A program made the translations under genes and the position numbers. 64,000 bases of DNA from Pseudomonadota bacterium (GTDB lineage Bacteria; Pseudomonadota; Alphaproteobacteria; Rhodobacterales; Rhodobacteraceae), in the NCBI GenBank assembly GCA_020161655.1, contig JAIUPC010000005.1, positions 82,673-146,672 of the forward strand. The letters run 5' to 3'. The stretch's first letter is position 1; every line of letters starts with the position of its first letter. Below, piece after piece: positions 14,888 through 31,867 of the stretch. Under the pieces are notes generated by a model that saw only the letters and a program-made list of their open reading frames with translations, searched no databases and had not been told where the DNA came from.

Positions 14888-15481
14888 ATGGAGCGCATGG
14901 CCGAGAGCATTATGAATGTCGCGACGACGTTGCCGGAGGGTGTGCCATTGGCGGCGAAGGGGCTCTTGCACCTTGGCTCGCGCGCGGCGGTCGATCAGAC
15001 GCTATCGCGTCTCGCCGCGCGCGGCGAGTTGATCCGTGCGGGACGCGGAATCTACATGCGCCCGGTCCAGACGCGCTTTGGTCCGCGCAGTCCGTCCGCT
15101 GAACAGGCAATTGAAGCGCTGGCTGTTCAGCGGGGGGAGACGATCGTGCCGAGCGGTGCTGCCGCGGCAAACGCTCTGGGCCTGACCACGCAGGTACCGG
15201 TCAAGTCGGTTTACCTTACCTCGGGGCGTAGCCGTGTGCTGAACCTTGGCCGGCAAACAGTCGAACTGCGTCATGCGCCGCGCTGGCAGTTGGCCCTTGG
15301 CAACAAGACCTCCGGCAAGGTTGTCCGTGCGCTGGCCTTGCTTGGACCGGATGAGGCTCCCAAGGCCCTGCAATTCCTGCGAACTAAGCTCACGGACACG
15401 GCAAAGACAGAACTGGTGTCCGCTGCGCCGCAGTTCCCGACTTGGTTGGCACGATTGGTCGGAAAGATGGTCCATGGCTGA
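14888..15481 (+). CDS. abiEi: AbiEi-type antitoxin (DUF6088), type IV TA
   Basis: The protein has 197 residues. An N-terminal winged helix covers about residues 15-60 (LGSRAAVDQTLSRLAARGEL, RAGRGIYMRP). The AbiEi C-terminal domain follows (GETIVPSGAAAANALGL, TSGRSRVLNLG). The antitoxin counters the toxin without direct binding in this class and represses its own promoter. It overlaps the toxin gene by 8 bp. The start is set by AAAGGAG five bases upstream. Confidence 0.8.
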   Translation: MERMAESIMNVATTLPEGVPLAAKGLLHLGSRAAVDQTLSRLAARGELIRAGRGIYMRPVQTRFGPRSPSAEQAIEALAVQRGETIVPSGAAAANALGLTTQVPVKSVYLTSGRSRVLNLGRQTVELRHAPRWQLALGNKTSGKVVRALALLGPDEAPKALQFLRTKLTDTAKTELVSAAPQFPTWLARLVGKMVHG

Positions 15482-16496
15482 GGCATTCCTGCGCCTCAGC
15501 GCCAAAGACCGGCTGGATGCTCTTGGTGTCGCAGCCGATCGGCTTTGCCGGCCAGCCCACCTCCTCGAAAAGGACGTCTGGGTGGTCTGGGCGATCCAGC
15601 AGCTGTTTGGATCGCCCATCGGCACAAACCTCGTCTTCAAGGGTGGCACCTCTTTGTCGAAGGCCTACCAGGTCATTGACTGTTTTTCCGAGGATGTGGA
15701 TCTGACCTTCAATATCCGGGCGCTGATCCCGGATTTGCTCGAGGGCCGTGAAGATGCCATGCCCGCCACATCCAGCGAAGAGCGGCGCTGGTCGAAACGT
15801 GTCCGCCAGGCTTTGCCTGAATGGGTGGCCGAGACCATCCAGCCGATCCTGCAGCAGGCGATTGATCGGGAAGGGATCGATGCCAGGCTTCGGATTGACG
15901 GCAACAAGCTGTTCATTGACTACCCGCACCTCGCCCAAGGCACGGGATACGTTTCTCCGAGCGTAATGCTGGAATTCGGCGCGCGTTCTACCGGAGAGCC
16001 GGCATCCCCGCGCGACATTGTCTGCGACGCCGCGTCGGTGATCGAAGGCGTGGAGTTTCCGACTGCCTGCCCGCGCGTGATGCATGCAGAACGGACCTTC
16101 TGGGAAAAGGCGACGGCGATTCACGTCTTCTGTTTGCAGAACCGTATGCGTGGGAATCGCTTTTCCAGACATTGGCATGATGTCGCCCGGTTGGACGATG
16201 CGGGCATCGCCGCTGCGGCCATCGCAGATCTCGCACTTGCGACCGCTGTCGCACGGCACAAGACGATGTTCTTTGCAGAGAAGGCTGCAGATGCCACATG
16301 GATCGATTTTGGCGCCGCAACCTCTGGGCAACTGCAACTTGCCCCAAGCGGCGATGCCCTCGACGTTCTTGCTGAGGATTGCCGCCGGATGGCCGAGGAC
16401 GGCCTGCTTGCAACGACACCAGAGCCCTTTGGCGACTTGATGGACCGCTGCGCGGACATCGCCAGAAGGGCCAACGCAGCGTTTAGATCTTCCTAG
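15474..16496 (+). CDS. abiEii: AbiEii-type nucleotidyltransferase toxin
   Basis: The protein has 340 residues. The nucleotidyltransferase motifs of the AbiEii/MenT family are present: KGGTSLSKAY (residues 56-65) and SEDVDLTF (metal-binding D74 and D76). Later basic residues include MHAERTFWEKATAIH. Family members add nucleotides to tRNA or other targets and cause growth arrest or phage abortive infection. ATG 15474 overlaps the antitoxin end. It sits amid plasmid relics, as such modules often do. Confidence 0.85.
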   Translation: MAEAFLRLSAKDRLDALGVAADRLCRPAHLLEKDVWVVWAIQQLFGSPIGTNLVFKGGTSLSKAYQVIDCFSEDVDLTFNIRALIPDLLEGREDAMPATSSEERRWSKRVRQALPEWVAETIQPILQQAIDREGIDARLRIDGNKLFIDYPHLAQGTGYVSPSVMLEFGARSTGEPASPRDIVCDAASVIEGVEFPTACPRVMHAERTFWEKATAIHVFCLQNRMRGNRFSRHWHDVARLDDAGIAAAAIADLALATAVARHKTMFFAEKAADATWIDFGAATSGQLQLAPSGDALDVLAEDCRRMAEDGLLATTPEPFGDLMDRCADIARRANAAFRSS

Positions 16497-16518
16497 TTCG
16501 CTTTCCTCGGCAGCATTC

Positions 16519-16590
16519 TCACCTGCTCCCGTCGATCTGCTCTGACATCAGTCCCTTGCCGCGGACGCACGGGTCTGGGACGGCGCGTCG
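16519..16590 (-). pseudogene. Duplicated 3' end of the small repeat protein gene
   Basis: The minus strand reads RRAVPDPCVRGKGLMSEQID then GSR and a stop. This matches the last 23 residues of the protein at 17284-17580 (RRAVPDECFRDKGLMSKWID, GNR, stop). No upstream portion is present, so it is a duplication relic sitting where a mobile mystery protein B (Fic) gene would be expected. Confidence 0.7.
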
Positions 16591-16616
16591 CCCGGCGGGC
16601 TTGTGAAGCTTCAGCG

Positions 16617-17078
16617 TCATTGCCAGAAATCCCGGCGGCCTTCACGGATGATGTCCGCAGCCAGTTCCTCCACCATCTCGGCCTCGCTGCGCAGCCCTTC
16701 GCTCTGCTCTTCGAGGGCCATATGCGCGTGTGTGCGCTGGATGATGCGGCGGGCTTTCGCGCGCGCTTGGGCCAGGACGATCTCTTCGACCGCGCCCTCG
16801 CGCGGGACGATGGCAAAGACGAGACGTCCGCCCATGGCCTCGGCGATCTTCTCGAGCTGGTTCAGCGTTATCGTTCCCGCCTGTTCATTTCGGATCGACG
16901 CATAAATCGTGTTGCGCGCGACCCCGAGCCGTTCGGCAAGGGCAGGCGCCCTCATACCGATCGCCTCCTGAAAGGTGGCGATCCAGCCGCCGAACGGCTT
17001 TGCAAGCGACTTTGTCAGGCTGGCTGCTTGGTTGATCCTCTCTTGGGCCTGGCGTTGCTTCGGGCGGGAGACGGACAT
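16617..17078 (-). CDS. Mobile mystery protein A (XRE-like DNA-binding)
   Basis: The protein has 153 residues, the normal family length. After an N-terminal region (RQAQERINQAASLTKSLAKP) comes an XRE helix-turn-helix (ALAERLGVARNTIYASIRNE) and the conserved LEKIAEAMGGRLVFAIVP. The family usually sits directly before mobile mystery protein B, a Fic protein, and the pair moves between genomes. Here the partner is missing and an unrelated fragment follows. A TTGCGA/TACAAT promoter lies upstream. Confidence 0.75.
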   Translation of the reverse strand: MSVSRPKQRQAQERINQAASLTKSLAKPFGGWIATFQEAIGMRAPALAERLGVARNTIYASIRNEQAGTITLNQLEKIAEAMGGRLVFAIVPREGAVEEIVLAQARAKARRIIQRTHAHMALEEQSEGLRSEAEMVEELAADIIREGRRDFWQ

Positions 17079-17757: not shown

Positions 17758-18129
17758 ATGACCTATCTCGGCCCTGTTGCGCATTCCGTTCCTGTCTCGT
17801 CCTGTGATCCAGCGCCCGCAATCCTTGCAGTTGCTGAAGCGCTGCAGCCCAATCTGGCGCGGGGGTTCCAGATTGACGCGCTGCGTCTACGCGTCGAGAT
17901 GGAGCGCGCCTTTGGCGGCTCCGATGCCGATGGCGCCTGGGATTGGAAGCTCGCCTATGAGGCGGGCGAGGTGGCTCTGGTCCTCTTCCTGCGGAAGTTC
18001 GGCCGCGCGCTGGTGGCCCGGGCCGGCTCGCCCGCGGCGCTGCTGCCGATCCTCGCCAAAGTGGCAGGCCTCTTGCCTACGCACACCCGGCGCTCGGAAG
18101 AGATGGAGCGCTTTCAGCAGATGGCATGA
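17758..18129 (+). pseudogene. 5' fragment of a strawberry-notch-like helicase/methyltransferase gene
   Basis: The frame encodes 123 residues (FQIDALRLRVEMERAFGGSD, LLPILAKVAGLLPTHTRRSE). These match the N-terminus of the very large strawberry-notch-type plasmid proteins that carry a methyltransferase and helicase. The reading ends at ERFQQMA and a stop, just where IS110 sequence begins, so the gene was cut by that insertion and the remaining over 1000 codons are gone. TGGAG precedes ATG 17758. Confidence 0.55.
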
Positions 18130-18221
18130 CCATTCTTGGCGCTCCGGCTGACGTCCGACAGGATCGCCACAGAGTGATCGCGGTCTGCACTCTTCTTCGG
18201 TCCGCAGCCCGAGGAGATAGC

Positions 18222-18585
18222 ATGGAAGACTACAACGCCTTTGTCGGTTTGGACGTGCACAAGGACAGCATATCGGTCGCGATTGCGGATGCCGGTCGGG
18301 ACGACGAGATCCGGATGTATGGGACGATCGCCAACACGCACGACGCTGTTTCGCGCCTGATGCGCAAACTGGTGCAGCGCCACGGCAAGATCGAGGTGAC
18401 CTACGAAGCAGGTCCCTGCGGCTATGGGAATTATCGGCAACTCGCCGAGATGGGGATTGTCTGTCGGATCGTGGCGCCAAGCCATACGCCAAAGCGGCCG
18501 GGTGAACGGGTGAAGCACGACACGCGTGACGCGCTGATGCTCGCGCGCTTGCTTCGTGCAGGCGAACTTACCTTTGTGTGGGTGT
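18222..18585 (+). pseudogene. Truncated IS110-family transposase (N-terminal catalytic half)
   Basis: From ATG 18222 the product begins FVGLDVHKDSISVAIADAGR, carrying the first acidic residue of the DEDD site, and continues to KHDTRDALMLARLLRAGELT. Homology ends at FVWV, near 18585, where a truncated recombinase on the other strand starts. The C-terminal serine/transposase-20 domain is missing. The element's left end should lie near 18125, directly after the strawberry-notch fragment. Confidence 0.75.
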
Positions 18586-19606
18586 CCGTGCCGCAAGATG
18601 CGACGATCTCTTCGATGGTCAAAGCCGGAATCGTCTTTGGGACCGTGGAAAGCCGACGACGGACCCCTGACGGCACAGCCAAGAAGAGCGACGGAGCACA
18701 TAGACCTTGGCCAATCATGAAACGCAAGAATGTGCGCAGCACGGTGACCGTCATGCGGACTGAAGATCGGGAACGGTCATCACCCTGATCCAGAATGATC
18801 GGGCGGACAGCGGTCGCGGTGAAGTTCTGCGGTCCCGATCCCAGCTTCGTCAGCCAGCGATTCAACTCCTGCAGATAGCGCCGGACCGTCTCAACAGTGG
18901 CGCCGCGCTCCCGACGCAGCCATGTGGCGAAATCGGCGAAGCGTGGATCGGCCGGTGCTTCTGCAGGTCCCGCCACTGGAATCAATCCCTCGACTCTGAG
19001 AAAGACGACAAAGGCGCCGGCACCACGAAAGCGATCCTTGGTCCCCGTGGTGACAACCCGTTTGCCGCGCTTGGTCCTGATCCCGCATTGGCAGTCATGC
19101 TGGACGAACTGCTCGATCACGTCGTCTTCGATGCTGGCCGCCGTAACTCGCATTTGCAGGATACATTCGGCGAAATGGCGGGCTTGGCTCATGCGAGAGC
19201 TGTAGGTGATCTTACTATAGCCTTGGGCTGCAAGGTTCGCTGAAAAGCCTGCCAAATGCCCGCCGAGCCGGGCAACGTCGTCTGGAATGGCAACATGGCC
19301 GGTATCTTCCAGATACCGCAGAAACCTGCGGGCCTCGGCGATGCAGCTCGGGTCCCGCAGCTGCAAGGCACTGTACTGGCTGCACCGACAGCGGTGGCGC
19401 GCAAAACGATTGATGGACGCAGCATCAATATCCCTTATCGCGATATGCCGGTCGGCAGCCCACTTCAAGAGATGCCGGGCGGCGCTGAGGGCACCAGCAG
19501 ACAGGTTGGGATTCTCCGCAACGTAAGCCGAGACGAGTGCTTGGTTGGCGGGAGCCCCGGCGGCTGTCGTGCCGCCGGGGTGAGAGTTGGAGGGGGAGGT
19601 CATGTC
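18586..19606 (-). pseudogene. Tyrosine recombinase/integrase lacking its catalytic domain
   Basis: From ATG 19606 (AGAAGGA upstream) about 340 residues remain, with two SAM-like core-binding regions (GALSAARHLLKWAADRHIAI; TVETVRRYLQELNRWLTKLG). The frame reaches PALTIEEIVASC, the spot just before the catalytic domain, then runs into antisense IS110 sequence. The R-H-R-Y residues are absent, so it is inactive. It resembles large plasmid integrases of Rhizobiales and Rhodobacterales that occur in sets of two or three; no siblings are seen. Confidence 0.7.
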
Positions 19607-19667
19607 GGGGTGTCCTTCTGCGGTTGAGAGCAGAGGCATCATGATTATGCAAAGTGGAGATCCCGAA

Positions 19668-19868: not shown

Positions 19869-20840
19869 TTAGGCCGCGTCGATGAACACCTTGGCCAGAT
19901 CGCTCAGATCCCAGTTCCCCCCGGTCAGAACCGCGCAAACCTTCTCACCCGGTCTGACCTTGATCGAACCGGCCAGCAGAGCGCCGATGCCGATCGACGC
20001 GGCCGGCTCGGCGATCAGCTTGGCGTCCGTGGCCAGCGCTCGCATGCCGGCGACGATATGCGTGTCCTCCACCAGAACGATCTCGTCGACGTATTTTTCG
20101 ATGATGGGATAGGGGTTCCGTCCCGGAACGCTGAGCCGCAGCCCGTCGGCAATGGTGTCCAGGAGCGGCAACGAGGTGCGCTCCTTGTTGATGCGGCTGT
20201 GAAAGTACTTCGGGGTCAGCGCCGGCTCGGCACCGATGACCCGGACCGAGGGCTTCAATTCCTTGATCGCCGTGGCGATGCCCGAGATGAGACCTCCGCC
20301 GCCCAGCGGCACGATGACGGTATTGACGTCTTCGAGGTCATCGAGGATTTCGCAGCCGATGGTGCCCTGGCCGGCCATGACCCGCGGATCTTCGAAGCCG
20401 TGAATCACCGCATAATTCTTTTCTTGCGCGATCTCGTAGACCTTCTTCCAGCGGGCGGCATTGTCGCCGTCGAACATGATGACTTCGGCGCCCAAAGCCC
20501 TGGTATTGGCGATCTTGAGCTTCGGTGTGGTCACTGGCAGCACAAGGGCCACCTTCACGCCCAGCATTCGCGCGGCATAGGACAGCCCCTGCGCGTGATT
20601 GCCCGAGGACGAGGAAATGATCCCGTTGGCGATCTGGTCCCGCGGCAGCTGGAGCGCCGTGTTCAATGCACCGCGAATTTTGAAGGCGCCGGTGATCTGC
20701 AGGGTTTCGGGCTTGAGATACAGCTGGCAGCCGACGGCGCTCTCGATCTTGTCGGCGCGCAGCAGCGGGGTGTGGCGGATATGCGGGCGCAGCCGCGCGC
20801 GCGCGTCGAGGATATCCTGCAGGGTCGGGTGGTCGTACAT
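19869..20840 (-). CDS. PLP-dependent threonine/3-hydroxyaspartate dehydratase family (EutB/BhcB-like)
   Basis: The protein has 323 residues from ATG 20840 (GGAAGAAGCAA upstream). Fold-type II motifs are the PLP lysine region ITGAFKIRGALN, the substrate loop SSSSGNHAQG and the phosphate cradle VPLGGGGLISG. It lies next to an ornithine-cyclodeaminase-like gene. That pair recalls EutB-EutC of ectoine degradation and BhcB-BhcD of the beta-hydroxyaspartate cycle, where 3-hydroxyaspartate is dehydrated to iminosuccinate and then reduced to aspartate. Other genes of those pathways are absent, so the substrate is open. Confidence 0.75.
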   Translation of the reverse strand: MYDHPTLQDILDARARLRPHIRHTPLLRADKIESAVGCQLYLKPETLQITGAFKIRGALNTALQLPRDQIANGIISSSSGNHAQGLSYAARMLGVKVALVLPVTTPKLKIANTRALGAEVIMFDGDNAARWKKVYEIAQEKNYAVIHGFEDPRVMAGQGTIGCEILDDLEDVNTVIVPLGGGGLISGIATAIKELKPSVRVIGAEPALTPKYFHSRINKERTSLPLLDTIADGLRLSVPGRNPYPIIEKYVDEIVLVEDTHIVAGMRALATDAKLIAEPAASIGIGALLAGSIKVRPGEKVCAVLTGGNWDLSDLAKVFIDAA

Positions 20841-20940
20841 TTGCTTCTTCCTTGTGGCTTCCACGTCGGCAATGTTTGACCGCGCGTGGAGGATGTTCAT
20901 CGACGGCTCAATCTGGGTTCATGCCCTTGAGATCGGCAGT

Positions 20941-21948
20941 TCAGCCCAACGGCACCAGTTCGAGGAAATCGAAAAAGGTCCCTAGCTTCTGCTCCAACGC
21001 GTTGCGGTAGATCTTTCCGGCCGTCGTGTTGTCCTGAATCGCCATACCGGTAGAATCGAAGATGGTCACCTCGGCATCGGTCTCCCGGCCTGGCTTCCTG
21101 CCCAGCAATATCTCTCCGATCTCCGCATGAATGGCGGCGCGGGTGAGGATGCCTTCGCGCAGCGGATGCTGCGTCTCGCCCTTTTCGGCGCATTGCGACA
21201 GCGAATCGACGACAACCTTGGCCTGTCGGAAAGTCTCGGGGTCCAGTTCCTGCTTGCCCTTCTGGTCGGCGCCGATCGCGATGATATGCGTGCCGGGCCG
21301 GACCCAGCGGGCCTCGATTACCGGCCCGCTGCCTCGGGTGGTAGTGATGACGATGTCGGCCTGCGCGACCGCGGCCTGGATCGATTCTGCCAGCACCACC
21401 GGAATGCCGAGTTCGGCCTCGATGTCCGCCTTGAAGCGTGCCTGCGCCTGCGGGATGCGATCCGAGGCGTGGATGACCTCGATTTCCATCACCTCGCGGA
21501 TCGCCCGGATCTGCATCCGCGCCTGATTGCCTGTGCCGATCGAGGCCAGGCTGCGGGCATCCTTGCGCGCCAGCGCCTTGACCGAGACGGCACCGGCGGC
21601 GCCGGTCCTGAGGCCCGTGATCAGACTCCCCTCCATGACGCAGGCCAGGGCACCGCTTCGGGCGTCGAACAGAAGGATCGTGCCCATGCCGTTGGGCACG
21701 CCGTACTGGGCCGGATTGTCGGTGAAACCGCCCGACGAAGCCTTCATCGAGATCAGGCCGCCCGATTTGTGATGGCTGAGCTTGAAATCGATCTCCGCGG
21801 AAGAGGGTTCGAGATGGAGGCCGGTGTAACCGGGCTGCTCGACTTGATCGCTGTTGAAGGCCCGATATGCCTCCTCGACCGCGCCGATGACGTCCGTCAG
21901 GCGGATCAGCCGGCTCACTTCGTCCTTCTTCAGCAGCAAGGTTTTCAT
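20941..21948 (-). CDS. Ornithine cyclodeaminase/mu-crystallin family (EutC/BhcD-like imino acid reductase)
   Basis: The protein has 335 residues. The NAD(P)-binding motif is [17 protein letters not shown], preceded by [20 protein letters not shown]. The family deaminates ornithine or reduces cyclic imines and iminosuccinate. It is 100 bp upstream of the dehydratase gene on the same strand, so the two probably share a transcript. Together they would turn a 3-hydroxy amino acid into an imine and then into an amino acid. The start at 21948 is preferred over 21957, three codons earlier. Confidence 0.8.
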
Positions 21949-22265
21949 CTGCAGCATCTCTCTGTCATTTGCTTTTCCGCCGCGCCCCCGCCACCGGTGA
22001 CACGTGTCAATGTGCGTCGCACCCGTCCAGACCTATCTTGGCCTGCCCCCGGCAGGAGAACAGCGTCAAACCCATCCCGCCCGCAGCACGATCAACTGAA
22101 GGTCACGACTGGACAGGCACGAAATTTCTATGGATTGCGCAGATCGTCCCCGATGACGTGTAGCAGGGGCGACCGAACGGTGAGGGTGCAAGGTTTCAAG
22201 GACTTCAGTAGCAGGCAAACTCCGGCCGAAACGGCCTCGGGCGGGCCCTCGGTAGCAGCCGCCCG
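21949..22265. other. Intergenic region before the EutC-like gene, with a 12-bp palindrome
   Basis: No gene is supported in these 317 bp. The promoter for the dehydratase/reductase pair should be here. TGACACGTGTCA at 21998-22009 is a perfect palindrome 50 bp before the start and is a candidate regulator site. Confidence 0.4.
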
Positions 22266-22943
22266 TCAACGCGGGTTGAGCAATTTGATCTGCAGGTCTT
22301 CCCAGTGTTCCTGGAACGCATCGCGCGCGGTGTCGTAGTGGCGGCTTTTCAGGCTGTTGATGAGCCGCTTATGCTCATCGGCCATTTCTTCGGCAGTGCC
22401 ATAAAAGCCCTGCCGCTGCACGAGGAGCAGCTCGATTTCGCCTTCCAGGCCGGCATAGGTGCGCTTCAGCCGGGCGCTGCCGCTTGCGGCGATTATGGCG
22501 CGGTGGAAGTCTCGGTCCGCCGTAACCAGCATCGATCTTTCAGCGGCGAGGGTCGAGGCATGCATGAGCGCGACCGCCTCGATCGCCGCTGGCGGGATGA
22601 TTCCGGTCAGCACGATCATACGGATGGCCTCGCCCTCGATGGCACCCCGCACACGGGTGATGTCGACGATGTCGTCGGGGCCGAATTCCGGCAGCACGAA
22701 GCCCCGGTTCGGGATCTGGCGCAGTAGGCCCTGGGTGACCAGGATCTGGGCGGCGGTGCGGAAGGTGTGTCTGGACGTCGAATGCTCTTCGCACATCTTG
22801 GCGTCGCGAAGGAATTCGCCGGGCTGGAAGTCGCCGGACAGGATGCGCCGTCGCAAGGCGCGCGTCAGTAGATCCACCGCGCTGAGGGGGGCTGTCTCGG
22901 CATCCGTCTCGTTGTGTGCGGCTTGTGTCACGGCGTGCGGCAT
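22266..22943 (-). CDS. GntR-family transcriptional regulator (FadR/FCD type)
   Basis: The protein has 225 residues. An N-terminal winged helix spans about residues 20-85 (LTRALRRRILSGDFQPGEFL; LLRQIPNRGFVLPEF). An all-helical FCD ligand domain follows (DIVDITRVRGAIEGEAIRMI; DRDFHRAIIAASGS) with the usual metal-binding His/Asp positions. It sits between the two halves of the catabolic cluster and likely controls both. Candidate operators are at 25529 and 25749. Confidence 0.8.
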   Translation of the reverse strand: MPHAVTQAAHNETDAETAPLSAVDLLTRALRRRILSGDFQPGEFLRDAKMCEEHSTSRHTFRTAAQILVTQGLLRQIPNRGFVLPEFGPDDIVDITRVRGAIEGEAIRMIVLTGIIPPAAIEAVALMHASTLAAERSMLVTADRDFHRAIIAASGSARLKRTYAGLEGEIELLLVQRQGFYGTAEEMADEHKRLINSLKSRHYDTARDAFQEHWEDLQIKLLNPR

Positions 22944-23035
22944 GGCTCGGCATAGGTCGTTGATTATGCAGCTACGCCACAGGCAGCAGCGCAGGGCAAG
23001 GGTGAAGGCGCGCCGGTCGACGCTCTGCGCCCGAT

Positions 23036-24394
23036 CTAGACCTGCACGGCACGCAGCGCCGCGTCGACGCCTTCCAGCAGGCGGGCCGCGTTGGCCGAGG
23101 TAAAGACCAGCGGCGGCCGGATCTTCAGGATATGGGCATCCGCCCCGGTCGCGGAAATTAGGATGCGCCGGTCACGCAGGGCGTTGACGGCTGCCAGCGC
23201 ACGGTCCATGTCCGGCACCTTCCGGTCGCGGTCCTTGACCAGTTCCACGGCGAAATAGAGGCCAGCCCCGCGAACGTCGCCCACGAATTCGTATTTCTTC
23301 TGCAGGGCGCGCAGGCCGTCGAGAATTTCGCCGCCGACCTTGGCAGCGTTTTCCATCAACCCCTCGTCACGGATCGAGTCGAGCACGGCTTGCGCCGCGG
23401 CAACGGCGACGGAATTGCCGCCGAAGGTGTTGAAATAGCGCATGGTTGCGCCGAACTCGGCCACGAGGTCCGGTCGGACCACTAGGCCCGCGACCGGATA
23501 GCCATTGCCCATCGGCTTGCCCAGGGTCACAATGTCCGGCTCGACCTTGTGGCGCGCGTGACCCCAGAGATGGGTGCCGGTGCGTCCGAACCCCGATTGC
23601 ACCTCATCTGCGATGAAGAGGCCGCCCGCCTTGCGCACCACCTCGGCCACCGGCACCAGCACGTCGGTGGGATCGGTGTAGAGACCATCAGACGAGAAGA
23701 CAGAATCGACGATGAAGGCGGCCAGACCGCCGCCGTGGCGCTCCAGATCAGCGATCTGGCGCGCGACATCTTCCGCCATCCGCCGACCGATTTCCGCGAC
23801 CGGAAGGCGGTAGGAATCCGGTGCCGCGACGGTGCGGAGATAGGGATCGAGCGCCGATTTCTTGCCCAGCGATGGCGAGATCGCCGCCACCGCGCCGCTG
23901 TTGCCGTGATAGGCTTCGGACGTGACGATAACGCCGGTCTTTCCGGTATAGTAACGCGCCACGCGCAGGGCCAGGTCGTTGGCTTCCGATCCACTGCAGG
24001 TGAACATCGCGCAGCCGTTCCGCCCGAGTTCGCCGCCGAAGGTGCCGATCAGCGCTTCGGCATAATCCAGCAGCGGCTCTTGCATGTAGCGCGTGTGGGT
24101 GCACAGCGTCTCAAGCTGCCGCCGGATCGCCGCGACGACACGCGGATGGGCGTGTCCCAGTGATACCACGTTGTTGTAGGCGTCGAGATATTCATTGCCA
24201 TGCTTGTCATAAAGAAAGACCCCCTTGGCACGGGATATCTGCACCGGCGACTTGTAGAACAGCCGGTACCCCGGGCCGAGCAGCCTTTGCCGCCGGGCGA
24301 TATGCGCCTGGTCTTCGCTGGCGAGATCGGCCGCGTCCTGCGGGTTGAAGCCATTCGCCATGTCGCCACGGAATCCCTTGGGCAGAGTTGTCAT
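23036..24394 (-). CDS. Class III PLP enzyme (aminotransferase or phospho-lyase, AGXT2L-like)
   Basis: The protein has 452 residues from ATG 24394; the frame is open to 24529. Class III motifs include YLDAYNNVVSLGHAHPRVVA, CSGSEANDLALRVAR, FIADEVQSGFGRTG and the PLP lysine TLGKPMGNGYPVAG. Directly upstream and 11 bp away is an APH-type kinase gene. Kinase plus class III enzyme is the architecture of hydroxylysine or ethanolamine breakdown (HYKK with AGXT2L phospho-lyases, sometimes fused in bacteria). A true transaminase is the alternative. Confidence 0.8.
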   Translation of the reverse strand: MTTLPKGFRGDMANGFNPQDAADLASEDQAHIARRQRLLGPGYRLFYKSPVQISRAKGVFLYDKHGNEYLDAYNNVVSLGHAHPRVVAAIRRQLETLCTHTRYMQEPLLDYAEALIGTFGGELGRNGCAMFTCSGSEANDLALRVARYYTGKTGVIVTSEAYHGNSGAVAAISPSLGKKSALDPYLRTVAAPDSYRLPVAEIGRRMAEDVARQIADLERHGGGLAAFIVDSVFSSDGLYTDPTDVLVPVAEVVRKAGGLFIADEVQSGFGRTGTHLWGHARHKVEPDIVTLGKPMGNGYPVAGLVVRPDLVAEFGATMRYFNTFGGNSVAVAAAQAVLDSIRDEGLMENAAKVGGEILDGLRALQKKYEFVGDVRGAGLYFAVELVKDRDRKVPDMDRALAAVNALRDRRILISATGADAHILKIRPPLVFTSANAARLLEGVDAALRAVQV

Positions 24395-24405
24395 TTCGGT
24401 TCCTA

Positions 24406-25464
24406 TCAGGTCAGGAGTTCGGAAATTTGCGCGGTCGAAAGCGAATGGAACCACGCAAGGTGGGCCCATCCGGTCCCGGTGTGGCGCAGGATGTAGCGGC
24501 TGTTCTGGGGAAAGATTTCGGCCCGCCATGAGGTCAGCAGTGCCCGGACAGCGAGCCGACCCATGGCGAGGAAGGGCATCAGGCGAAGCTCCTCGTCGGT
24601 CAGGTCGGCGTGGCGGAGATAGCCGCGCAGAACATCGCGCGGTTCGTCGAACAGATCGCGCCGGTTGTCTTCGATGATCTTGGGCATCTGGTTCATCAGC
24701 GCGGTCGAGACGTCGACGGCGATGGCAGTGCGGACCGCGTCGCCGAAATCGATGACGCCGGTCAGGAAACCCGGGCTAGTGTGATCCACGACCAGGTTCG
24801 AGGTGTTGAAATCGTTGTGCAGCACTTGCCGTCGGCACAGGTCCAGACGCGGCTTGATTTCGGCAAAGCGCTCCAGCGCGCGGACAGTCCAGGCCCGCTT
24901 TGGGCCCTCGGGAATGAAGCGCGCCAAATCGGCAAGTTCGAGCAGATGGGTGACATCCCAGGCCAGCACCCGGTCGTCGGCCGGATGCGAAAAATCAGCC
25001 ATGGCAAGACGCAGCCTGGCCAGCACCTCGCCGATCCGTTCGCGCTGAGGGGCGGTTGATGTCGTCCGGTCGAGCGGCGTTCCGGGCAGGAAGCTGATGA
25101 GCCGCGCAACGCGCCGCTCGCCAGCGCGGGTGGTGACGAGGGGCAGATCCGCGCCGAGGAGGGCGCGATGGGCCCGGGGGATGGGCAGATCAGGCGCGCG
25201 CGCTTCGAGATGACGCAAGAGCGCGACCTGGAATTCTAGCTCCTGAATCCGCTCGGAGGGATGGGCGATCTTCAGCACGAACTTGCCCCGCGCCGCGCCG
25301 TCGAGGAGGAATGTGTCGTCCTTCTCGGTGTCGAAGCGCGTTGCTGTGCCCGGCAGGTCATAGAACCGCGCGGCGATGTGTTCGGCTTCGGCGGCGCCCA
25401 CCGGGCGACAAGCCTCGGAAAGCTCGGCGGCGGGGGCAGGCCCGGACGGACGATTATGACCCAT
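24406..25464 (-). CDS. Aminoglycoside-phosphotransferase-fold small-molecule kinase (hydroxylysine-kinase-like)
   Basis: The protein has 352 residues. The catalytic loop is VLHNDFNTSNLVVD (Brenner-type HxDxxxxN) and the metal site is GVIDFGDAVRTA. FVLKIAHPSE holds the ATP-binding lysine. Substrates in this family are amino alcohols, aminoglycosides, homoserine or hydroxylysine. The ATG at 25464 is the first gene of the minus operon kinase-PLP enzyme-gntR. Resistance to an antibiotic is unlikely because the partners are catabolic. Confidence 0.8.
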   Translation of the reverse strand: MGHNRPSGPAPAAELSEACRPVGAAEAEHIAARFYDLPGTATRFDTEKDDTFLLDGAARGKFVLKIAHPSERIQELEFQVALLRHLEARAPDLPIPRAHRALLGADLPLVTTRAGERRVARLISFLPGTPLDRTTSTAPQRERIGEVLARLRLAMADFSHPADDRVLAWDVTHLLELADLARFIPEGPKRAWTVRALERFAEIKPRLDLCRRQVLHNDFNTSNLVVDHTSPGFLTGVIDFGDAVRTAIAVDVSTALMNQMPKIIEDNRRDLFDEPRDVLRGYLRHADLTDEELRLMPFLAMGRLAVRALLTSWRAEIFPQNSRYILRHTGTGWAHLAWFHSLSTAQISELLT

Positions 25465-25528
25465 TTCAAACCCGAATCAAAGGCTACCCCAAGGCCGGCA
25501 GCGGCATGGGTTTACCTAACTCACACTG

Positions 25529-25544
25529 CATAATTGTCCAACAA
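25529..25544. promoter_or_regulatory. Candidate GntR operator, copy 1
   Basis: CATAATTGT-N3-ACAA, with a TTGT/ACAA inverted core, 65 bp before the kinase ATG. The same 9-bp left part and the same spacing recur at 25749. Assignment to the cluster's GntR protein is inference. Confidence 0.5.
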
Positions 25545-25748
25545 GTCTTTTTTGCGGTCGAGATGTTCCGCTTTCGACGCCGGGCCAACCGTATCAAGCG
25601 CCCTTGCGAATTTGGATGGGCATTTCCGCTAAACCAAGGCTTTTTCGGATAAAACCGGAAACTATTGCAAGGTATTGCACGAAAGATCCCTATGCTGCCG
25701 TCCCTCGTCGCGCCAAAACTGCAGCCTGCCCACGCCAGGGGCGTATGC

Positions 25749-25764
25749 CATAATTGTTGTACAA
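25749..25764. promoter_or_regulatory. Candidate GntR operator, copy 2
   Basis: CATAATTGT-TGT-ACAA, extending to a perfect ATTGT/ACAAT pair (25753-25765). It lies 137 bp before the HAD gene and 220 bp from copy 1, suggesting that one site serves each divergent promoter. Confidence 0.5.
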
Positions 25765-25901
25765 TACATTGACGACGCCGCAGCACTGTGCTTTCTAGCT
25801 CAAACGGGCCGGGCTGCAGAAGGCAAGCTGCGGTGTTCCGTCGGTCATGGCTGGCCCTGTGCTGCCGCGCCATGTCATGAAACCTAGAAGGACTACATGC
25901 C

Positions 25902-26591
25902 ATGACCAAATTTCGGCCGAAATACGTTACCTTCGACTGCTACGGCACGCTTACCAACTTCGACATGGCCGGCGCCGCGCGGCGTGTTTACGGCGCGCGG
26001 CTTTCGCCCGAGGCAATGGCCGGTTTCGTCGAAGCTTTCAGAGGCTATCGCCTTGACGAGGTGCTGGGGGCATGGAAACCCCTTGTTGACGTGGTGCACA
26101 ATTCCGTCGAGCGCAGCTGCAAACGCATCGGCATCCGGTTTGATGCCGAAGACGCGCAGCGCATCTATGACGAGATCCCGACCTGGGGCCCGCACCCGGA
26201 CGTCCCGGCAGGTCTTGCCCGTGTCGCCAAGGAAATCCCGCTGGTGATCCTGTCAAACTCGATGAAGGGCCTGATCATGTCGAACGTGGAAAAACTGGGC
26301 GCGCCAGTGCACACCGTCATCACCGCCGAGGAAGTTGGCGCCTACAAGCCGCTTATGAAGGGCTTTGAATACATGCTCGACACGCTCGGCTGCACCCCCG
26401 AGGACATCACGCATGTCTCCTCTTCATTCCGCTATGACCTGGTGCCGGCCTATGATCTGGGGATCAGGAATAAGGTCTGGGTCAACCGCGGCCACGAACC
26501 CGCCAACCAGTTCTACGACTACACCGAGATCGCGGACATCGGCGGACTGGCCGTCGCCGTGGGTCTGGAACCCACCCTGAAGCGCACCTGA
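25902..26591 (+). CDS. HAD-superfamily type II (haloacid-dehalogenase-like) hydrolase
   Basis: The protein has 229 residues. Motif I is VTFDCYGTL: nucleophile D12 is kept, but the second Asp of phosphatases is Tyr (Y14), as in L-2-haloacid dehalogenases. Motif II is VILSNSMKG, the lysine is in GAYKPLMKG, and motif IV is SSSFRYDLVPAYDLG. It is therefore more likely a dehalogenase or C-N/C-X hydrolase (an azetidine-carboxylate-hydrolase-like role is conceivable) than a phosphatase. It is divergent from the kinase operon and shares its control region. Confidence 0.8.
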   Translation: MTKFRPKYVTFDCYGTLTNFDMAGAARRVYGARLSPEAMAGFVEAFRGYRLDEVLGAWKPLVDVVHNSVERSCKRIGIRFDAEDAQRIYDEIPTWGPHPDVPAGLARVAKEIPLVILSNSMKGLIMSNVEKLGAPVHTVITAEEVGAYKPLMKGFEYMLDTLGCTPEDITHVSSSFRYDLVPAYDLGIRNKVWVNRGHEPANQFYDYTEIADIGGLAVAVGLEPTLKRT

Positions 26592-27268: not shown

Positions 27269-27964
27269 TCAGACGGAAACCTCCGCGCGCAGGGTGGCCT
27301 TGTCGAAGCTGGCCGTTGGCCCCGCGAACGAGACTGCGCCGCGCCGAAGGACGTAGAAGCGGTCGGCGAGAGCATGGGCGAATTCGAAATACTGTTCGAC
27401 CAGGATGATGGCCATGTCGCCCCTGTCGCGCAGATAGGTGATTACCTGGCCGATCTGCTGGATGATGTTGGGCTGGATGCCCTCGGTCGGTTCGTCGAGA
27501 AGCAGCACCTTTGGGCGCATGATCATGGCGCGGGCGATGGCAAGCTGCTGCTGCTGGCCGCCAGAGAGGTCGCCGCCGCGCCGGCCGGACATATCTTTCA
27601 GCACGGGAAAGAGATCGTAGATGCTTTCGGGGATTCTGCGCTCGGCGCGCGGCAGGAGCGCGAAGCCGGTTTCGAGGTTTTCGCGCACGGTCAGCAACGG
27701 GAAGATCATCCGACCCTGCGGCACGGTGGCCAGACCGCGTCGGGCCATGTCCTGTGGGGCCAGGCGGCCTAGGCTTTCACCGTCAAATTCGATGGTGCCG
27801 CCCGAGCGGGGATGGGTCCCGGCAAGCGCCTTGAGAAAGCTCGTCTTGCCTACGCCATTCGTGCCCATGATGCAGGTCACCTCACCGGCCCTCGCTTCGA
27901 AATCGATGCCGTACAGGATCTGCGATCCGCCGTAATGCAGTGTCAGCCCTTCGGTCTTCAGCAT
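27269..27964 (-). CDS. urtE: Urea ABC transporter ATP-binding protein UrtE
   Basis: The protein has 231 residues. Walker A is GTNGVGKTS, the signature is LSGGQQQQLAIARA and Walker B is VLLLDEPTEGIQPNI; the last phrase is typical of UrtE/LivF. It powers high-affinity urea import with UrtD. It is the last gene of urtABCDE, one base after urtD. The Fic/ISNCY debris begins just past its stop, so the operon end may have been trimmed. Confidence 0.9.
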   Translation of the reverse strand: MLKTEGLTLHYGGSQILYGIDFEARAGEVTCIMGTNGVGKTSFLKALAGTHPRSGGTIEFDGESLGRLAPQDMARRGLATVPQGRMIFPLLTVRENLETGFALLPRAERRIPESIYDLFPVLKDMSGRRGGDLSGGQQQQLAIARAMIMRPKVLLLDEPTEGIQPNIIQQIGQVITYLRDRGDMAIILVEQYFEFAHALADRFYVLRRGAVSFAGPTASFDKATLRAEVSV

Positions 27965-27965
27965 C

Positions 27966-28709
27966 TCAGCCCCGCCCCAGATAAACGTCGATCACGGCCT
28001 GGTTCTTTGTCACATGGTCAAGGCTGCCTTCGGCCAACACCGCGCCCTCGTGCAGAACGGTCACGCGGCAATCCAGGCGGCGGACGAATTCCATGTCATG
28101 CTCCACCACGACCACGGCGCGGGTCTTCGCGATCTCGACAAGCAGTTCGGTGGTCTTCTCCCGTTCCGCAAGCGTCATCCCCGCCGCCGGTTCGTCGACC
28201 AGCAAGAGACGCGGTTCCTGTGCCAGCAGCATCGCGATCTCCAGCCACTGCTTTTGACCATGGCTGAGGATGCCCGCCTTGCGGCCCAGGCTGTCCCCCA
28301 GCCCGACCTGCACCGCTAGCGCCAGAATCCGCTCGTCATCCACCCCGGTCTTGCTCCACCCCAGCACTGCCCAGGGGCTGCGGCCTGCCTTAAGTGCCAG
28401 TGTCAGGTTCTCCGAGACTGTCTGGTCCTCGAACACCGTGGGGCGCTGGAACTTGCGCCCCACACCCGCGCGTGCGATCTGCGCTTCTGACATCCGCAGC
28501 AGCGAAACGGGCTTCTCGCCGAAGCTGACGCTGCCACTGTCCGGCCGGGTCTTGCCGGTGACGATGTCCATGAAGGTGCTCTTGCCCGCCCCGTTCGGCC
28601 CGATGATGGCCCGAAGTTCCGCCGGGCCGATGGCAAAGGTCAGGTTGTTGATCGCGCGGAAGCCGTCGAAGCTAACGGTAACGCCGGACACTTCCAGAAG
28701 GGTGCTCAC
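27966..28709 (-). CDS. urtD: Urea ABC transporter ATP-binding protein UrtD
   Basis: The protein has 247 residues. Walker A is GPNGAGKST and Walker B is RLLLVDEPAAGMTLAEREKT. Between them VFEDQTVSENLTLALK and the signature LSHGQKQWLEIAMLLA are UrtD/LivG features. It overlaps urtC by 4 bp. Confidence 0.9.
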   Translation of the reverse strand: MSTLLEVSGVTVSFDGFRAINNLTFAIGPAELRAIIGPNGAGKSTFMDIVTGKTRPDSGSVSFGEKPVSLLRMSEAQIARAGVGRKFQRPTVFEDQTVSENLTLALKAGRSPWAVLGWSKTGVDDERILALAVQVGLGDSLGRKAGILSHGQKQWLEIAMLLAQEPRLLLVDEPAAGMTLAEREKTTELLVEIAKTRAVVVVEHDMEFVRRLDCRVTVLHEGAVLAEGSLDHVTKNQAVIDVYLGRG

Positions 28710-29926
28710 TCCTGCGCCTCCTTCTCTTGCAGCGACCCGTCATCCGGTCCGAGCGGCGCGCCCTTGCGGTCAGGGGCATGCACCCCGGCTAAGCGGTCGA
28801 AGAGCCCGCCGATGCCCTTTGGGGCGAACAGCGTAACCAGCACGAAGGTCAGGCCCAGAAGCACCTGCCACCAGTCGACCCAGTTGATCGTGGCAAACCC
28901 CAGCGGGATCGAGGGAACGCGCCCGCCCGTGAACCAGCTGGACAGAAGCGACACCACTGCGGCCCCGATGACAGCCCCGTAAAGCCTGCCGCGTCCGCCG
29001 ATGGCCGCCCAGACGGCAAGGTAGATACTTGCGATGGGGGCCAATTCGGCCGGGTTGACAATGCCGGCTTGGGGGTAATAGAGCGCACCGGCAAGCGCGC
29101 AGATCACGGCGGTCAGGGTGAAGGCGAACAGTTTGTAGCTCTCGACCGAATAGCCGAGGAACCGTACCCGCGCTTCGTCATCCCGGATCGCGCGGATCAC
29201 AGAACCGAACTTGCCCGAGACAATGGAATGCAGGGCCACGTATGCCAGCGCAAGCGCAAGCGCCGAAGCCCAGAAGAACCAGACGCTGACGGTATCCTGC
29301 CCGGCAGTGACCCCCGGCAGGTTCTGCAACCCCGAAAGCCCGTTGTTGCCCCTCAGGCCGCTGTCGTTCTGGAAGAGATAGAGCGCGAGGGCGAGGGTCA
29401 TGGCTTGGGTCAGGATCGACAGATACACCCCGGTCACCCGGCTGCGGAACGCCAGCCAGCCGAAGACCAGCGCCAAGAGGCCGGGCAGAGCCACCACCAA
29501 CGTCAGTTGCAAAGGCAGGCTATGCGCAAAGCCCCAGATCGCGGGCAGGTCCGAAGCCCCCACTACGCCAAAAATCTGGGTGGCAATGCCTTGGGAAATC
29601 TCCTCCGGCGTCGCGGGCAACCCGCCGTTCAGAAGCGAGGCGATGACGATTTCCTCGGTTCGGGCGTACATCAGCCACATGCCGATCATGTAGCCGCCAA
29701 GCGCGAAGAAGGCCATGTGACCAAGCGAGAGGATCCCGGCGTAGCCCCAGATCAGGTCCATCGCCAAGGCGGCGAGGCAGAGGCACAGTGTCTTGCCCAG
29801 CGTCTTGACGAAGGAGGTCGAGACGAGGCCGAAATGCGCCGCCACGGTCACGCAGAGGGTGAAGAGGGCGAGACCGGCGAGGAAGACGAGGGCGGATCGG
29901 TGGCGGGGTTGAAGGATCGCGCGCAT
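28706..29926 (-). CDS. urtC: Urea ABC transporter permease UrtC
   Basis: The protein has 406 residues with about 10 hydrophobic segments of the LivM type. Marker runs are ALAMDLIWGYAGILSLGHMA and GKFGSVIRAIRDDEARVRFL, the cytoplasmic coupling loop. It forms the membrane channel with UrtB. The C-terminal tail (about 25 residues) is charged and soluble. It follows urtB after three bases. Confidence 0.9.
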   Translation of the reverse strand: MRAILQPRHRSALVFLAGLALFTLCVTVAAHFGLVSTSFVKTLGKTLCLCLAALAMDLIWGYAGILSLGHMAFFALGGYMIGMWLMYARTEEIVIASLLNGGLPATPEEISQGIATQIFGVVGASDLPAIWGFAHSLPLQLTLVVALPGLLALVFGWLAFRSRVTGVYLSILTQAMTLALALYLFQNDSGLRGNNGLSGLQNLPGVTAGQDTVSVWFFWASALALALAYVALHSIVSGKFGSVIRAIRDDEARVRFLGYSVESYKLFAFTLTAVICALAGALYYPQAGIVNPAELAPIASIYLAVWAAIGGRGRLYGAVIGAAVVSLLSSWFTGGRVPSIPLGFATINWVDWWQVLLGLTFVLVTLFAPKGIGGLFDRLAGVHAPDRKGAPLGPDDGSLQEKEAQE

Positions 29927-29929
29927 CGG

Positions 29930-31867
29930 TCAATCTCCCGCCGCGCGGCCACGAAGGGCAATGATCCCCCGGGGCCGGAACTGGATGAACAGGATGATGA
30001 ACAGGATCATGTAGGTCTGCGCCGCCAGGGTGTTGGAGGGATTGAAGAACTCGATCACCTTCTGCAGCCCGCCGATCATCGTGGCCCCCGCTAGCGTCCC
30101 CCAGATGCTGCCGACCCCGCCCACAACCACGGTCATGAAGCTTTGGACGATGTAGTCGGTGCCAAGCTCGGAGGTGACCTTCGCGAAAAGCCCGATGGCA
30201 ACCCCGGCGATCCCGGCGATGCCCGAGCCGATCCCGAAGGTCAGCACGTTGATGCGATCGGGGTTAATGCCCATGCTGGCCGCCATTCCAGGGTTCTGCG
30301 TGACCGCGCGAACCTCCAGCCCCAGACGGGTGCGTTTCATCAGCCAGAGGAAGAAGCCCAGGAAAGCCAGCGCCAGCACGAAGATCGCGATGCGGATGTA
30401 GCTGATCGACACCACAGCGTTCAGCACCCATGCCCCGTCCAACCAGGCCGGAGAGGTCAGGGGCCGCGCCTGTGTGCCGAAGATGTTCTTCAGGGCCTGT
30501 TGCAGCGCAATAGAGACGCCGAAGGTCGCCAGAAGCGTCTCCAGAGGGCGCTTATAAAGGTGCCGGATCACCAGCCGCTCCAAGGCCACCCCGGCGGCAA
30601 AAGTGATGACGAACGCCAAAGGCAGCGCGATCAGGATCGAAGCAGTATAGTTCGGGATGTAAAGCTGTACGACATAGCCGGTGTACGCGCCGATTGTGAT
30701 GAATTCGCCATGCGCCATGTTGATCACGCCCATCACCCCGAAGGTGATGGCAAGGCCGATGGCGGCAAGGAAGTAAATCGAGGCGAGCGACAGCCCGTCC
30801 AGCGCCAGATCCGCGGTCTGCATCGCGCCGACTGTCGTGCCGATCCGGCCAAGGGCGGCCTTGGCGGCATCGGTCACGGCGCGGTCGGGTTCTGCATAGA
30901 CCTCATAGAAGCGGGCGGTGGCGAGGGCGGCTGCCGCCTCATCATCCGTAGCGGCGACCGGGACGACCCCGCTTGCCTCCAGCGCAGTATAGGCGCGGTC
31001 GCGGGCGGCCTGCGTGTTCAATTCGGCTACGGGCACGCCTCCCACAGCGCCATCCTTCAGGTTGGCAAGCAACGCCGCCCGCTGCACCTCCAGCGTCAGG
31101 CGGGCGGGGGCGAGATTTGCGTCGACGAGGAGGTCATAGGCCTCGGCCTCGGTCAGGTCCCGCCCCGGACGCAGTTCGCGTGCGACGTTGGCATCGGGCG
31201 GGGTGGCCGATGCGATGCGACTGGTCGCAACCATTGGGTTCAGCGCCCCGCGCAGGTCCAGCCCGAGGTCCGAGCCGAAGCTGCTGATGGCCGCCACGCG
31301 GGCGGCGCTGTCAGGGTCGAAGCGCAGGGTCAGCAGCCGCTCCAGCCTCTGCTTCTGCGCCTTCAGCGCGGGGTCATCCTCACCGTCAATCGCAGCGCGG
31401 AGCGGCTCCAACGCCTCGGCTTTCGGGTCCTGCGCGATGGAGGCGAGCGCGGCCCGCCGCTTGGCCGGATCAGGGTCAGACAGGGTGAACTGCACCAGCG
31501 CCGTCGCGATCAGCCCGCGCACGCCGGCATTGGGCCTGAGCGCGGTCACCTCGGACGGAGCGGTATTGCCGGCGGCGGTGCCATCAAGCGCGGTCAGTGC
31601 CAGGTCGTCGCCTTCGGGCGCCGAAAGTAACAGCACATCGTCAGACTTGCGGATCACCAGCCGCTTGTCGGCCCAGGCGGAGAGGATGTCGTCGGCCATC
31701 GGGTCGCCGCTCGCGGCAAGGGCAGCGATCACCGGACCGATGGTCTGGCGCGAGGGCCTGGCAATTTGGTCGCGGTTCTGCGCGACAATCTCGCCAGCGG
31801 TCTGGCCAATAGCAGGCACGGCGGCAAGCCAGCAGAGGGCTGCTGCGATAAGGGAAAGGAAACGCAT
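29930..31867 (-). CDS. urtB: Urea ABC transporter permease UrtB
   Basis: The protein has 645 residues. A signal peptide (MRFLSLIAAALCWLAAVPAI) leads a periplasmic domain of about 310 residues with HEAT-like helical repeats. A LivH-type membrane domain follows (AIGLAITFGVMGVINMAHGE). The long extracytoplasmic N-terminal part is normal for UrtB of alphaproteobacteria. The gene starts 57 bp after urtA. Confidence 0.9.
   Translation of the reverse strand: MRFLSLIAAALCWLAAVPAIGQTAGEIVAQNRDQIARPSRQTIGPVIAALAASGDPMADDILSAWADKRLVIRKSDDVLLLSAPEGDDLALTALDGTAAGNTAPSEVTALRPNAGVRGLIATALVQFTLSDPDPAKRRAALASIAQDPKAEALEPLRAAIDGEDDPALKAQKQRLERLLTLRFDPDSAARVAAISSFGSDLGLDLRGALNPMVATSRIASATPPDANVARELRPGRDLTEAEAYDLLVDANLAPARLTLEVQRAALLANLKDGAVGGVPVAELNTQAARDRAYTALEASGVVPVAATDDEAAAALATARFYEVYAEPDRAVTDAAKAALGRIGTTVGAMQTADLALDGLSLASIYFLAAIGLAITFGVMGVINMAHGEFITIGAYTGYVVQLYIPNYTASILIALPLAFVITFAAGVALERLVIRHLYKRPLETLLATFGVSIALQQALKNIFGTQARPLTSPAWLDGAWVLNAVVSISYIRIAIFVLALAFLGFFLWLMKRTRLGLEVRAVTQNPGMAASMGINPDRINVLTFGIGSGIAGIAGVAIGLFAKVTSELGTDYIVQSFMTVVVGGVGSIWGTLAGATMIGGLQKVIEFFNPSNTLAAQTYMILFIILFIQFRPRGIIALRGRAAGD

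Follow-up and report, generated by a model that had tools for sequence, protein, structure and literature searches.

This analysis concerns a 64,000-nucleotide stretch of a Rhodobacteraceae genome (Alphaproteobacteria; assembly GCA_020161655.1, contig JAIUPC010000005.1, forward-strand positions 82,673 to 146,672), hereafter the window, and a cluster of six genes within it encoding a kinase, a class III pyridoxal phosphate (PLP) enzyme, a haloacid dehalogenase (HAD) family hydrolase, a GntR regulator and an EutB/EutC-like pair. The source genome comprises 4,079,253 bases in 24 contigs. A preliminary description of the window, made from its letters alone, had placed these six families within positions 19869-26591, and the open reading frame (ORF) listing together with Pfam and NCBIfam scans bore this out, with all six ORFs present and their catalytic motifs intact (Table 1). 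The minus strand carries, in order, the genes for KIN1 (the kinase), AT1 (the class III PLP enzyme), GntR/FCD, the EutC-like protein and the EutB-like protein, and HAD1 diverges from KIN1 across 437 bases (25465-25901). The AT1 ORF spans 23036-24529(-) and opens at 24529 inside the kinase gene; a start at 24394 (reading MTTLPKG), 11 bases past the kinase gene, is more likely. Below, HAD1, KIN1, AT1 and GntR are referred to as module 1 and the EutB/EutC-like pair as module 2.

Table 1. Genes of the cluster, with coordinates in the window
Feature	Coordinates	Strand	Family evidence and remarks
EutB-like PLP dehydratase (threonine/serine dehydratase family)	19869..20900	-	Pfam PF00291
EutC-like imino acid reductase (OCD/mu-crystallin family)	20941..21957	-	Pfam PF02423
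GntR/FCD regulator, probable local regulator of the cluster	22266..22943	-	PF00392 + PF07729
AT1, class III PLP enzyme, probable phospho-lyase	23036..24394	-	PF00202; start inferred
KIN1, APH-family small-molecule kinase	24406..25464	-	Pfam PF01636, 1.3e-28
HAD1, type II HAD hydrolase, divergent from KIN1	25902..26591	+	TIGR01428, 164.5 bits

The TIGR01428 score of HAD1 exceeded the cut-off of 125.4 bits, which places the protein in the type II HAD (L-2-haloacid dehalogenase) group. HAD1 has an aspartate nucleophile, conserved Arg, Asn, Lys and Asp residues and no DxD phosphatase motif, in agreement with the D12/Y14 signature from which a dehalogenase-type rather than phosphatase-type enzyme had been proposed. 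Among 77 non-identical relatives, drawn mostly from the kinase-anchored loci described below, D12, G15, R50, N119, K149, S173, S175 and D179 were invariant, and position 14 was tyrosine in 60 and histidine in 17. We take D12, R50, N119, K149 and D179 to be equivalent to the catalytic residues of L-2-haloacid dehalogenase. The best match in the PDB was a distant one, L-azetidine-2-carboxylate hydrolase 3smv (1.4e-20, 77 bits), and a profile of 17 HAD relatives reached 8hp5 (109 bits), 3smv (107 bits) and their variants at 104-109 bits, with all other entries at 57 bits or less. HAD1 and 3smv have an HxxxSxxxD stretch in common and match near 1e-30 by profile, whereas R50, D52 and SSSxR are invariant features peculiar to the HAD1 family. 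Passages of PMC8016842 describe Pseudomonas A2C and Aspergillus AzhA as L-azetidine-2-carboxylate hydrolases whose product is 2-hydroxy-4-aminobutyrate, and report that azetidine-2-carboxylate is detoxified in Aspergillus by the HAD hydrolase with the help of an acetyltransferase.

KIN1 matched the N-terminal part of the fused kinase/aminotransferase model PRK06148 (1.8e-55) and the homoserine kinase model thrB_alt (2.1e-15), both under cut-off; with 56.8 bits against a thrB_alt cut-off of 255.9, it does not qualify as an APH-type homoserine kinase. Its nearest solved relative by profile was the homoserine kinase 2ppq, distant kin at 9.4e-18, and a single-sequence search of the PDB gave no match at E 0.01. 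The HND (H216, N217, D218) and DFGD (D239, F240, G241, D242) motifs were invariant in all 29 aligned relatives. A scheme in which the HAD makes homoserine from azetidine-2-carboxylate for KIN1 to act on as a homoserine kinase was dropped, because the product given in passages of PMC8016842 is 2-hydroxy-4-aminobutyrate and KIN1 lies far under the thrB_alt cut-off. In the portions consulted of two articles on the homoserine cluster of Rhizobium leguminosarum (PMC10228743, PMC3333776), no link to the present gene set was found.

Residues 32-448 of AT1 aligned to its two best solved relatives, which scored 331 bits (5g4i, a phospholyase) and 318 bits (6tor, the human ethanolamine-phosphate phospho-lyase); the other 58 of the best 60 of 83 matches reached at most 177 bits, so that AT1 lies nearer by sequence to phospho-lyases than to transaminases. 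In all 61 kinase-anchored loci, AT1 started between -200 and +400 bases from the kinase end (median gap, 37). Since AT1 is nearest to phospho-lyases and adjoins a kinase, we read the two as an amino-alcohol kinase and an ammonia/phosphate lyase; judged from these sequence relationships, KIN1 most likely phosphorylates an amino alcohol and AT1 eliminates phosphate and ammonia. The phosphorylation and subsequent amino-elimination suggested in the preliminary description are supported in this respect, and its statement that the gene set matches no pathway known to its author was too strong for the kinase/lyase half, which is of an already known kind. Hydroxylysine kinase and 5-phosphohydroxylysine phospho-lyase form a known kinase/lyase pair, and hydroxylysine- and ethanolamine-phosphate-type systems likewise place an APH-type kinase beside a class III PLP enzyme; the difference here is the addition of a type II HAD and a GntR regulator. 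The fused models PRK06148 and PRK06149 were the best NCBIfam match of both KIN1 and AT1, at opposite model ends. Unlike these fusions, KIN1 and AT1 are two separate genes whose products score far under the full-length cut-off, and PRK06148 is itself named 'hypothetical protein'.

The conservation of module 1 was assessed by a scan of GTDB genomes with KIN1 as the single query, which matched 91 stretches, some of them short, and yielded 61 confirmed kinase loci dominated by Rhizobium, Sinorhizobium and Pseudomonas. In the closest group (kinase identity of at least 60%, n = 30), AT1 was present in 30, GntR in 29, HAD in 28 and all three in 28, the close loci without a HAD being L047 (Frigidibacter) and L050 (Mesorhizobium). 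Loci with 44-60% kinase identity (n = 27) all contained AT1, with HAD in 13, GntR in 13 and the three together in 13, and the four loci below 44% contained AT1 in every case and GntR in none. Because AT1 occurs in all 61 loci and HAD and GntR only in the closer ones, the kinase-AT pair is a reusable cassette, with HAD and GntR marking one branch; this branch includes Rhizobium, Sinorhizobium, Mesorhizobium, Devosia, Pseudomonas and Paraburkholderia, in which gene orders differ. On a Pantoea plasmid, phosphotransferase, AT and HAD genes follow one another, next to a gene whose annotation is PLP-dependent aminotransferase family protein. Among 149 Rhodobacteraceae genomes, kinase relatives (E 1e-40) were found in 10, the window's own included, and of the other nine only one was as close as 49%. 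HAD-KIN-AT-GntR is a conserved block, linked more than by chance, and module 1 is a real, recurrent catabolic module, frequently plasmid-borne, that seems to belong to a larger pathway of plant-associated and marine bacteria; its probable substrate is an uncommon amino alcohol or amino acid. At three loci with kinase-AT pairs and no HAD (L070, L073 and L075), the pair shares the locus with hydantoinase B, hydantoinase A and NMT1-type binding protein genes, respectively (one protein scanned per locus), which suggests that the same cassette serves another pathway there.

The same genome contains a larger cluster, which nearly fills contig C7 (24,131 bases) and includes a second set, HAD2-KIN2-AT2, whose products are 68%, 28% and 45% identical to their window counterparts. 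Contig C7 also encodes flavin adenine dinucleotide (FAD) oxidoreductases and tartrate-type and semialdehyde dehydrogenases. Larger sets were found in Sinorhizobium meliloti RCAM1750, Rhizobium etli CFN 42, Paracoccus seriniphilus and plasmid pB of S. meliloti LMB1, and also in Allorhizobium, Alloyangia, Ponticoccus and Burkholderia. Their varied contents include a type II HAD, FAD oxidoreductases, a peptide/NikA-type ATP-binding cassette (ABC) transporter, a class III aminotransferase and a GNAT protein; succinate-semialdehyde, tartrate and aldehyde dehydrogenases and glyoxylate/hydroxypyruvate reductase A; and an acetylornithine deacetylase-like M20 protein, a cupin and an AsnC regulator. In most of these sets EutC-EutB are present as well; the stretches in which they were not seen are those of Paracoccus and R. 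etli CFN 42. A HAD, FAD oxidoreductases, an ABC transporter and dehydrogenases of the same kind are carried by a Klebsiella plasmid. In S. meliloti LMB1 pB, a split similar to that of our genome was observed, with HAD/phosphotransferase/AT, EutC-EutB and the remainder together and HAD1-KIN1-AT1-GntR about 145 kb away. The tartrate dehydrogenase (580.7 bits; cut-off, 470.4) and the succinate-semialdehyde dehydrogenase (665.5 bits; cut-off, 646.35) exceeded their family cut-offs, and the FAD oxidoreductase and the transporter binding protein were nearest to the pipecolate oxidase and NikA-type models, respectively, both far under cut-off. The second HAD of the S. meliloti cluster, which adjoins class III aminotransferase and GNAT genes, is a closer homologue of azetidine-2-carboxylate hydrolase (7.1e-41). 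Beside HAD2-KIN2-AT2 on C7, the Opp-type permease ORFs are short (211 and 142 amino acids), and the contig yielded no binding protein belonging to the set; this transporter looks decayed.

We take gabT3 to belong to the S. meliloti version of the larger cluster. GabT3 of this species prefers gamma-aminobutyrate (GABA), as stated in passages of PMC7268258, and those of a PhaR study in S. meliloti (PMC12542648) list SMa1850, SMa1855, SMa1864 and SMa1869 as regulated genes and name no substrate. Product names and position place these four genes, by inference, in the larger cluster. A search of the open-licence PMC literature returned, in the text it covered, no description of this gene set or of the union of a kinase/lyase pair with a type II HAD in a large, often plasmid-borne system.

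The HAD subtypes defined by position 14 also differed in their neighbors. Of the 17 His14 HADs, 14 had KIN2 or AT2 within 3 kb (four of these also had KIN1 within that distance) and three had neither. The 60 Tyr14 HADs comprised 42 with KIN1 within 3 kb, nine with FADox2 and no kinase, one with AT1 only, one with AT2 and seven others. HAD subtype thus tends to track kinase subtype. This argues for a shared pathway, although the HADs came mostly from kinase-anchored loci.

The EutB/EutC-like pair of module 2 was compared with the ectoine and beta-hydroxyaspartate systems, in which the same two enzyme families stand side by side. Window EutB reached 241.9 and 214.8 bits against the two EutB models (cut-offs, 413 and 413.35) and 253.9 bits against BhcB (cut-off, 550), and window EutC reached 220.3 bits against the EutC model TIGR02992 (cut-off, 471.65) and 208 bits against BhcD (cut-off, 500); unlike the hydroxyectoine and beta-hydroxyaspartate enzymes, the window pair therefore scores at about half of the cut-offs. 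A separate ectoine/hydroxyectoine catabolic cluster with EutB, EutC, an EutD-like hydrolase and an M20 deacylase was located on contig C11 of the same genome. There, EutB exceeded both cut-offs (447.3 and 426.3 bits), EutC was over PRK08291 (476.6 against 408) and under TIGR02992 (453.7 against 471.65), and the EutD-like hydrolase was slightly under its cut-off (575.8 against 613). Ectoine genes had been reported as absent, and this holds for the window cluster, where neither an EutD hydrolase nor an ectoine transporter was found, but not for the genome, with its EutD-like protein on C11. Because C11 holds its own EutB and EutC, which are only 35% and 36% identical to those of the window, the window pair is by sequence a second pair, distinct from the ectoine pair. 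For its EutB the closest relatives are threonine dehydratase and serine racemase, and for its EutC they are archaeal alanine dehydrogenase and imino acid reductases; the two can reasonably be predicted to turn a 3-hydroxy amino acid into an imine and this into an amino acid. The window GntR is of the FCD type, unlike the MocR-type EnuR of ectoine systems described in passages of PMC13188858 and PMC5924519, where the roles of EutABC are given as proposed and not proven.

The linkage of module 2 to module 1 was less regular. EutB and EutC orthologues (at least 60% identity) were both present in the fetched stretch of 12 of the 30 close kinase loci, and EutC without EutB in one; the two halves thus occur together, and in several genera within one cluster, which disposes of the possibility raised in the preliminary description that they never do. 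A class-wide search for EutC (E 1e-85, 385 genomes) returned the window's own only, and linkage was therefore assessed on plasmid records. Counting 10 plasmid genera (Phyllobacterium was left out) and the window's own, EutB-EutC shared a fetched stretch with a HAD of the HAD1 family in 8 of 11 genera, namely Rhizobium, Sinorhizobium, Allorhizobium, Alloyangia, Ponticoccus, Variovorax, Burkholderia and that of the window. No such HAD was found in the EutC stretches of Agrobacterium, Microvirga and Cupriavidus, the last of which has a FAD oxidoreductase of the set next to EutC. Five of the genera (Agrobacterium, Microvirga, Burkholderia, Cupriavidus and Allorhizobium) were each represented by one record. 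Among the matches listed, 18 plasmid records, matched by hand, appeared for both EutC and HAD, and the two genes lay within 25 kb of each other in 15 of these (about 1.1 expected under random placement; many are close strains). The distances in the remaining records were 145 kb (NZ_CP141214, with another HAD about 11 kb from EutC), 77 kb (NZ_CP104132) and 569 kb (Cupriavidus NZ_CP068436). The EutB-EutC pair thus belongs to the system in many cases but not in all. The lone EutC-EutB pair of Microvirga sits amid copper/heavy-metal genes, and the S. meliloti pair adjoins a P-type ATPase gene.

Collectively, we tentatively favor, at a little under an even chance, a reading of the region as two neighboring modules of a larger accessory system for amine or amino acid catabolism with the following reactions. 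D12 of HAD1 would displace, via water, a leaving group at the carbon beside a carboxylate, giving a hydroxylated amine; KIN1 would phosphorylate the hydroxyl vicinal to the amine; and AT1, as a phospho-lyase-type enzyme, would eliminate phosphate and ammonia to leave an aldehyde, which semialdehyde dehydrogenases and onward enzymes encoded on C7 might oxidize. GntR would sense the substrate or an intermediate. In module 2, EutB would convert a 3-hydroxy amino acid by dehydration into an imine, which EutC would reduce to the plain amino acid. The computed results are the family assignments, the preserved catalytic residues, the conserved gene linkage, the proximity of AT1 to phospho-lyases and the larger cluster on C7; we infer the reactions and the order HAD, kinase, lyase. 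The co-occurrence of HAD with kinase-AT in Pseudomonas and Paraburkholderia, with other gene orders, and the second paralogous set on C7 speak for this reading. One self-contained six-gene pathway, as originally envisaged, is not what was found, since EutC-EutB also occur alone and HADs also occur without the kinase.

Several observations weigh against the two-module reading, and some of them also speak for an alternative in which KIN1-AT1 is a degradation pair of the usual ethanolamine, 1-amino-2-propanol or hydroxylysine type, beside which plasmid shuffling has gathered HAD1 and EutB-EutC as separate genes; we consider this alternative somewhat unlikely. The HAD is missing from 14 of the 27 loci with 44-60% kinase identity and from all four below 44%, some of these loci having hydantoinase or NMT1-type binding protein genes. 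An even sample of the class (385 genomes) contained a HAD of the HAD1 family in 10, the window's own included, and in the stretches around the other nine (one only 8 kb long) the kinase, AT1/AT2 and EutB/EutC were found in none, whereas a FAD oxidoreductase of the set (at least 44% identity) was found in five. This control implies that HADs of this family also serve without the kinase; it lowered our confidence in the two modules as one system and raised that in separate genes. Both EutB and EutC are absent from the fetched stretch of 17 of the 30 close kinase loci, and C7 lacks them. Plasmid EutC (60-80% identity) occurs in 102 records from 11 genera and HAD in 330 plasmid records, and EutC-EutB stand as a lone pair in one Agrobacterium and one Microvirga record. 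Fragments resembling an IS110 transposase and an integrase border the cluster. Against a mere gathering of genes, HAD and kinase-AT recur together in Rhizobiales, Pseudomonas, Paraburkholderia, Pantoea and the second paralogous set, and HAD and kinase subtypes tend to pair.

Azetidine amino acids are the boldest substrate candidate. Degradation of small-ring amino acids, in which the HADs open the ring of azetidine-2-carboxylate, either free or within nicotianamine- or mugineic-acid-like plant metallophores, and an aminotransferase, a semialdehyde dehydrogenase and a D-malate/tartrate dehydrogenase finish the four-carbon pieces, is an explanation we regard as unlikely. It is consistent with the solved proteins nearest to HAD1 and its family, azetidine-2-carboxylate hydrolase and a related dehalogenase, and with the still closer second HAD of S. 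meliloti beside its aminotransferase and GNAT genes. The two dehydrogenases over their family cut-offs, as well as the pipecolate-oxidase-like FAD oxidoreductase and the NikA-type binding protein, both far under theirs, point the same way. HADs of this group act with inversion, tartrate dehydrogenases have D-malate activity, and the tartrate and succinate-semialdehyde dehydrogenases could take D-2-hydroxy-4-aminobutyrate to D-malate and pyruvate. Detoxification by a HAD hydrolase and an acetyltransferase in Aspergillus, as related in passages of PMC8016842, offers a precedent. However, every specificity assignment is distant, there is no obvious source of such compounds for the marine members, and no link was found in the open-licence PMC text covered. 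Hydrolysis of plain azetidine-2-carboxylate would put the amine on C4 and the hydroxyl on C2; as the two are not vicinal, they would be unsuited to a phospho-lyase, a misfit that also counts against the HAD-kinase-lyase order of the two-module reading; a 3-hydroxylated azetidine piece would give the vicinal amino alcohol that the kinase-lyase step needs. In its fullest form, the window and C7 would together encode a pathway that lets bacteria feed on azetidine-ring amino acids, including the plant metal chelators nicotianamine and mugineic acids. A NikA-type peptide transporter would import them, FAD enzymes would cleave secondary amines, and the HADs would open the ring with inversion, giving D-hydroxy acids; kinase and phospho-lyase would take the vicinal amine off a hydroxylated piece, EutB/EutC would remove a 3-hydroxyl, and D-malate dehydrogenase would act last. 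We judge this version improbable. That EutB/EutC serve a second hydroxyectoine or beta-hydroxyaspartate pathway is the most improbable of these explanations. The pair resembles those systems at the family level, the wider cluster includes a BhcC-like DSD1 gene (139.9 bits; cut-off, 690), and a figure legend of a review lists the haloacid dehalogenase gene hadL near the ectoine genes of some genomes (PMC5924519, legend text). All scores are nevertheless far under their cut-offs, and with a separate ectoine cluster on C11, whose EutB is over both cut-offs and whose EutC is over that of PRK08291, this identity was set aside as largely contradicted.

The cluster joins genes whose annotations are vague or conflicting (aspartate or GABA aminotransferase, homoserine kinase, haloacid dehalogenase and ornithine cyclodeaminase). 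The same genes turn up repeatedly on rhizobial, Burkholderia, Paracoccus and marine Roseobacteraceae plasmids, and the reaction scheme proposed for the two modules is testable. If the substrate were a plant non-protein amino acid or a metallophore, the system would have a bearing on rhizosphere competition.

In the flanks of the cluster, four ORFs at 27269-31867(-), right after HAD1, resemble a urea/branched-chain-type ABC transporter (two of the four were scanned, giving an ABC ATPase and a permease), and nothing ties them to the cluster. The border just below 19.7 kb is occupied by a partial IS110 transposase match (18126-19642) and an overlapping weak integrase-like ORF on the opposite strand, possibly a mobile-element scar. 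Further out, at 15246-17078, an AbiEii-like nucleotidyltransferase ORF (PF08843, 1.7e-34) and a small opposite-strand ORF with a weak helix-turn-helix match, below cut-off, may represent a toxin-antitoxin remnant.

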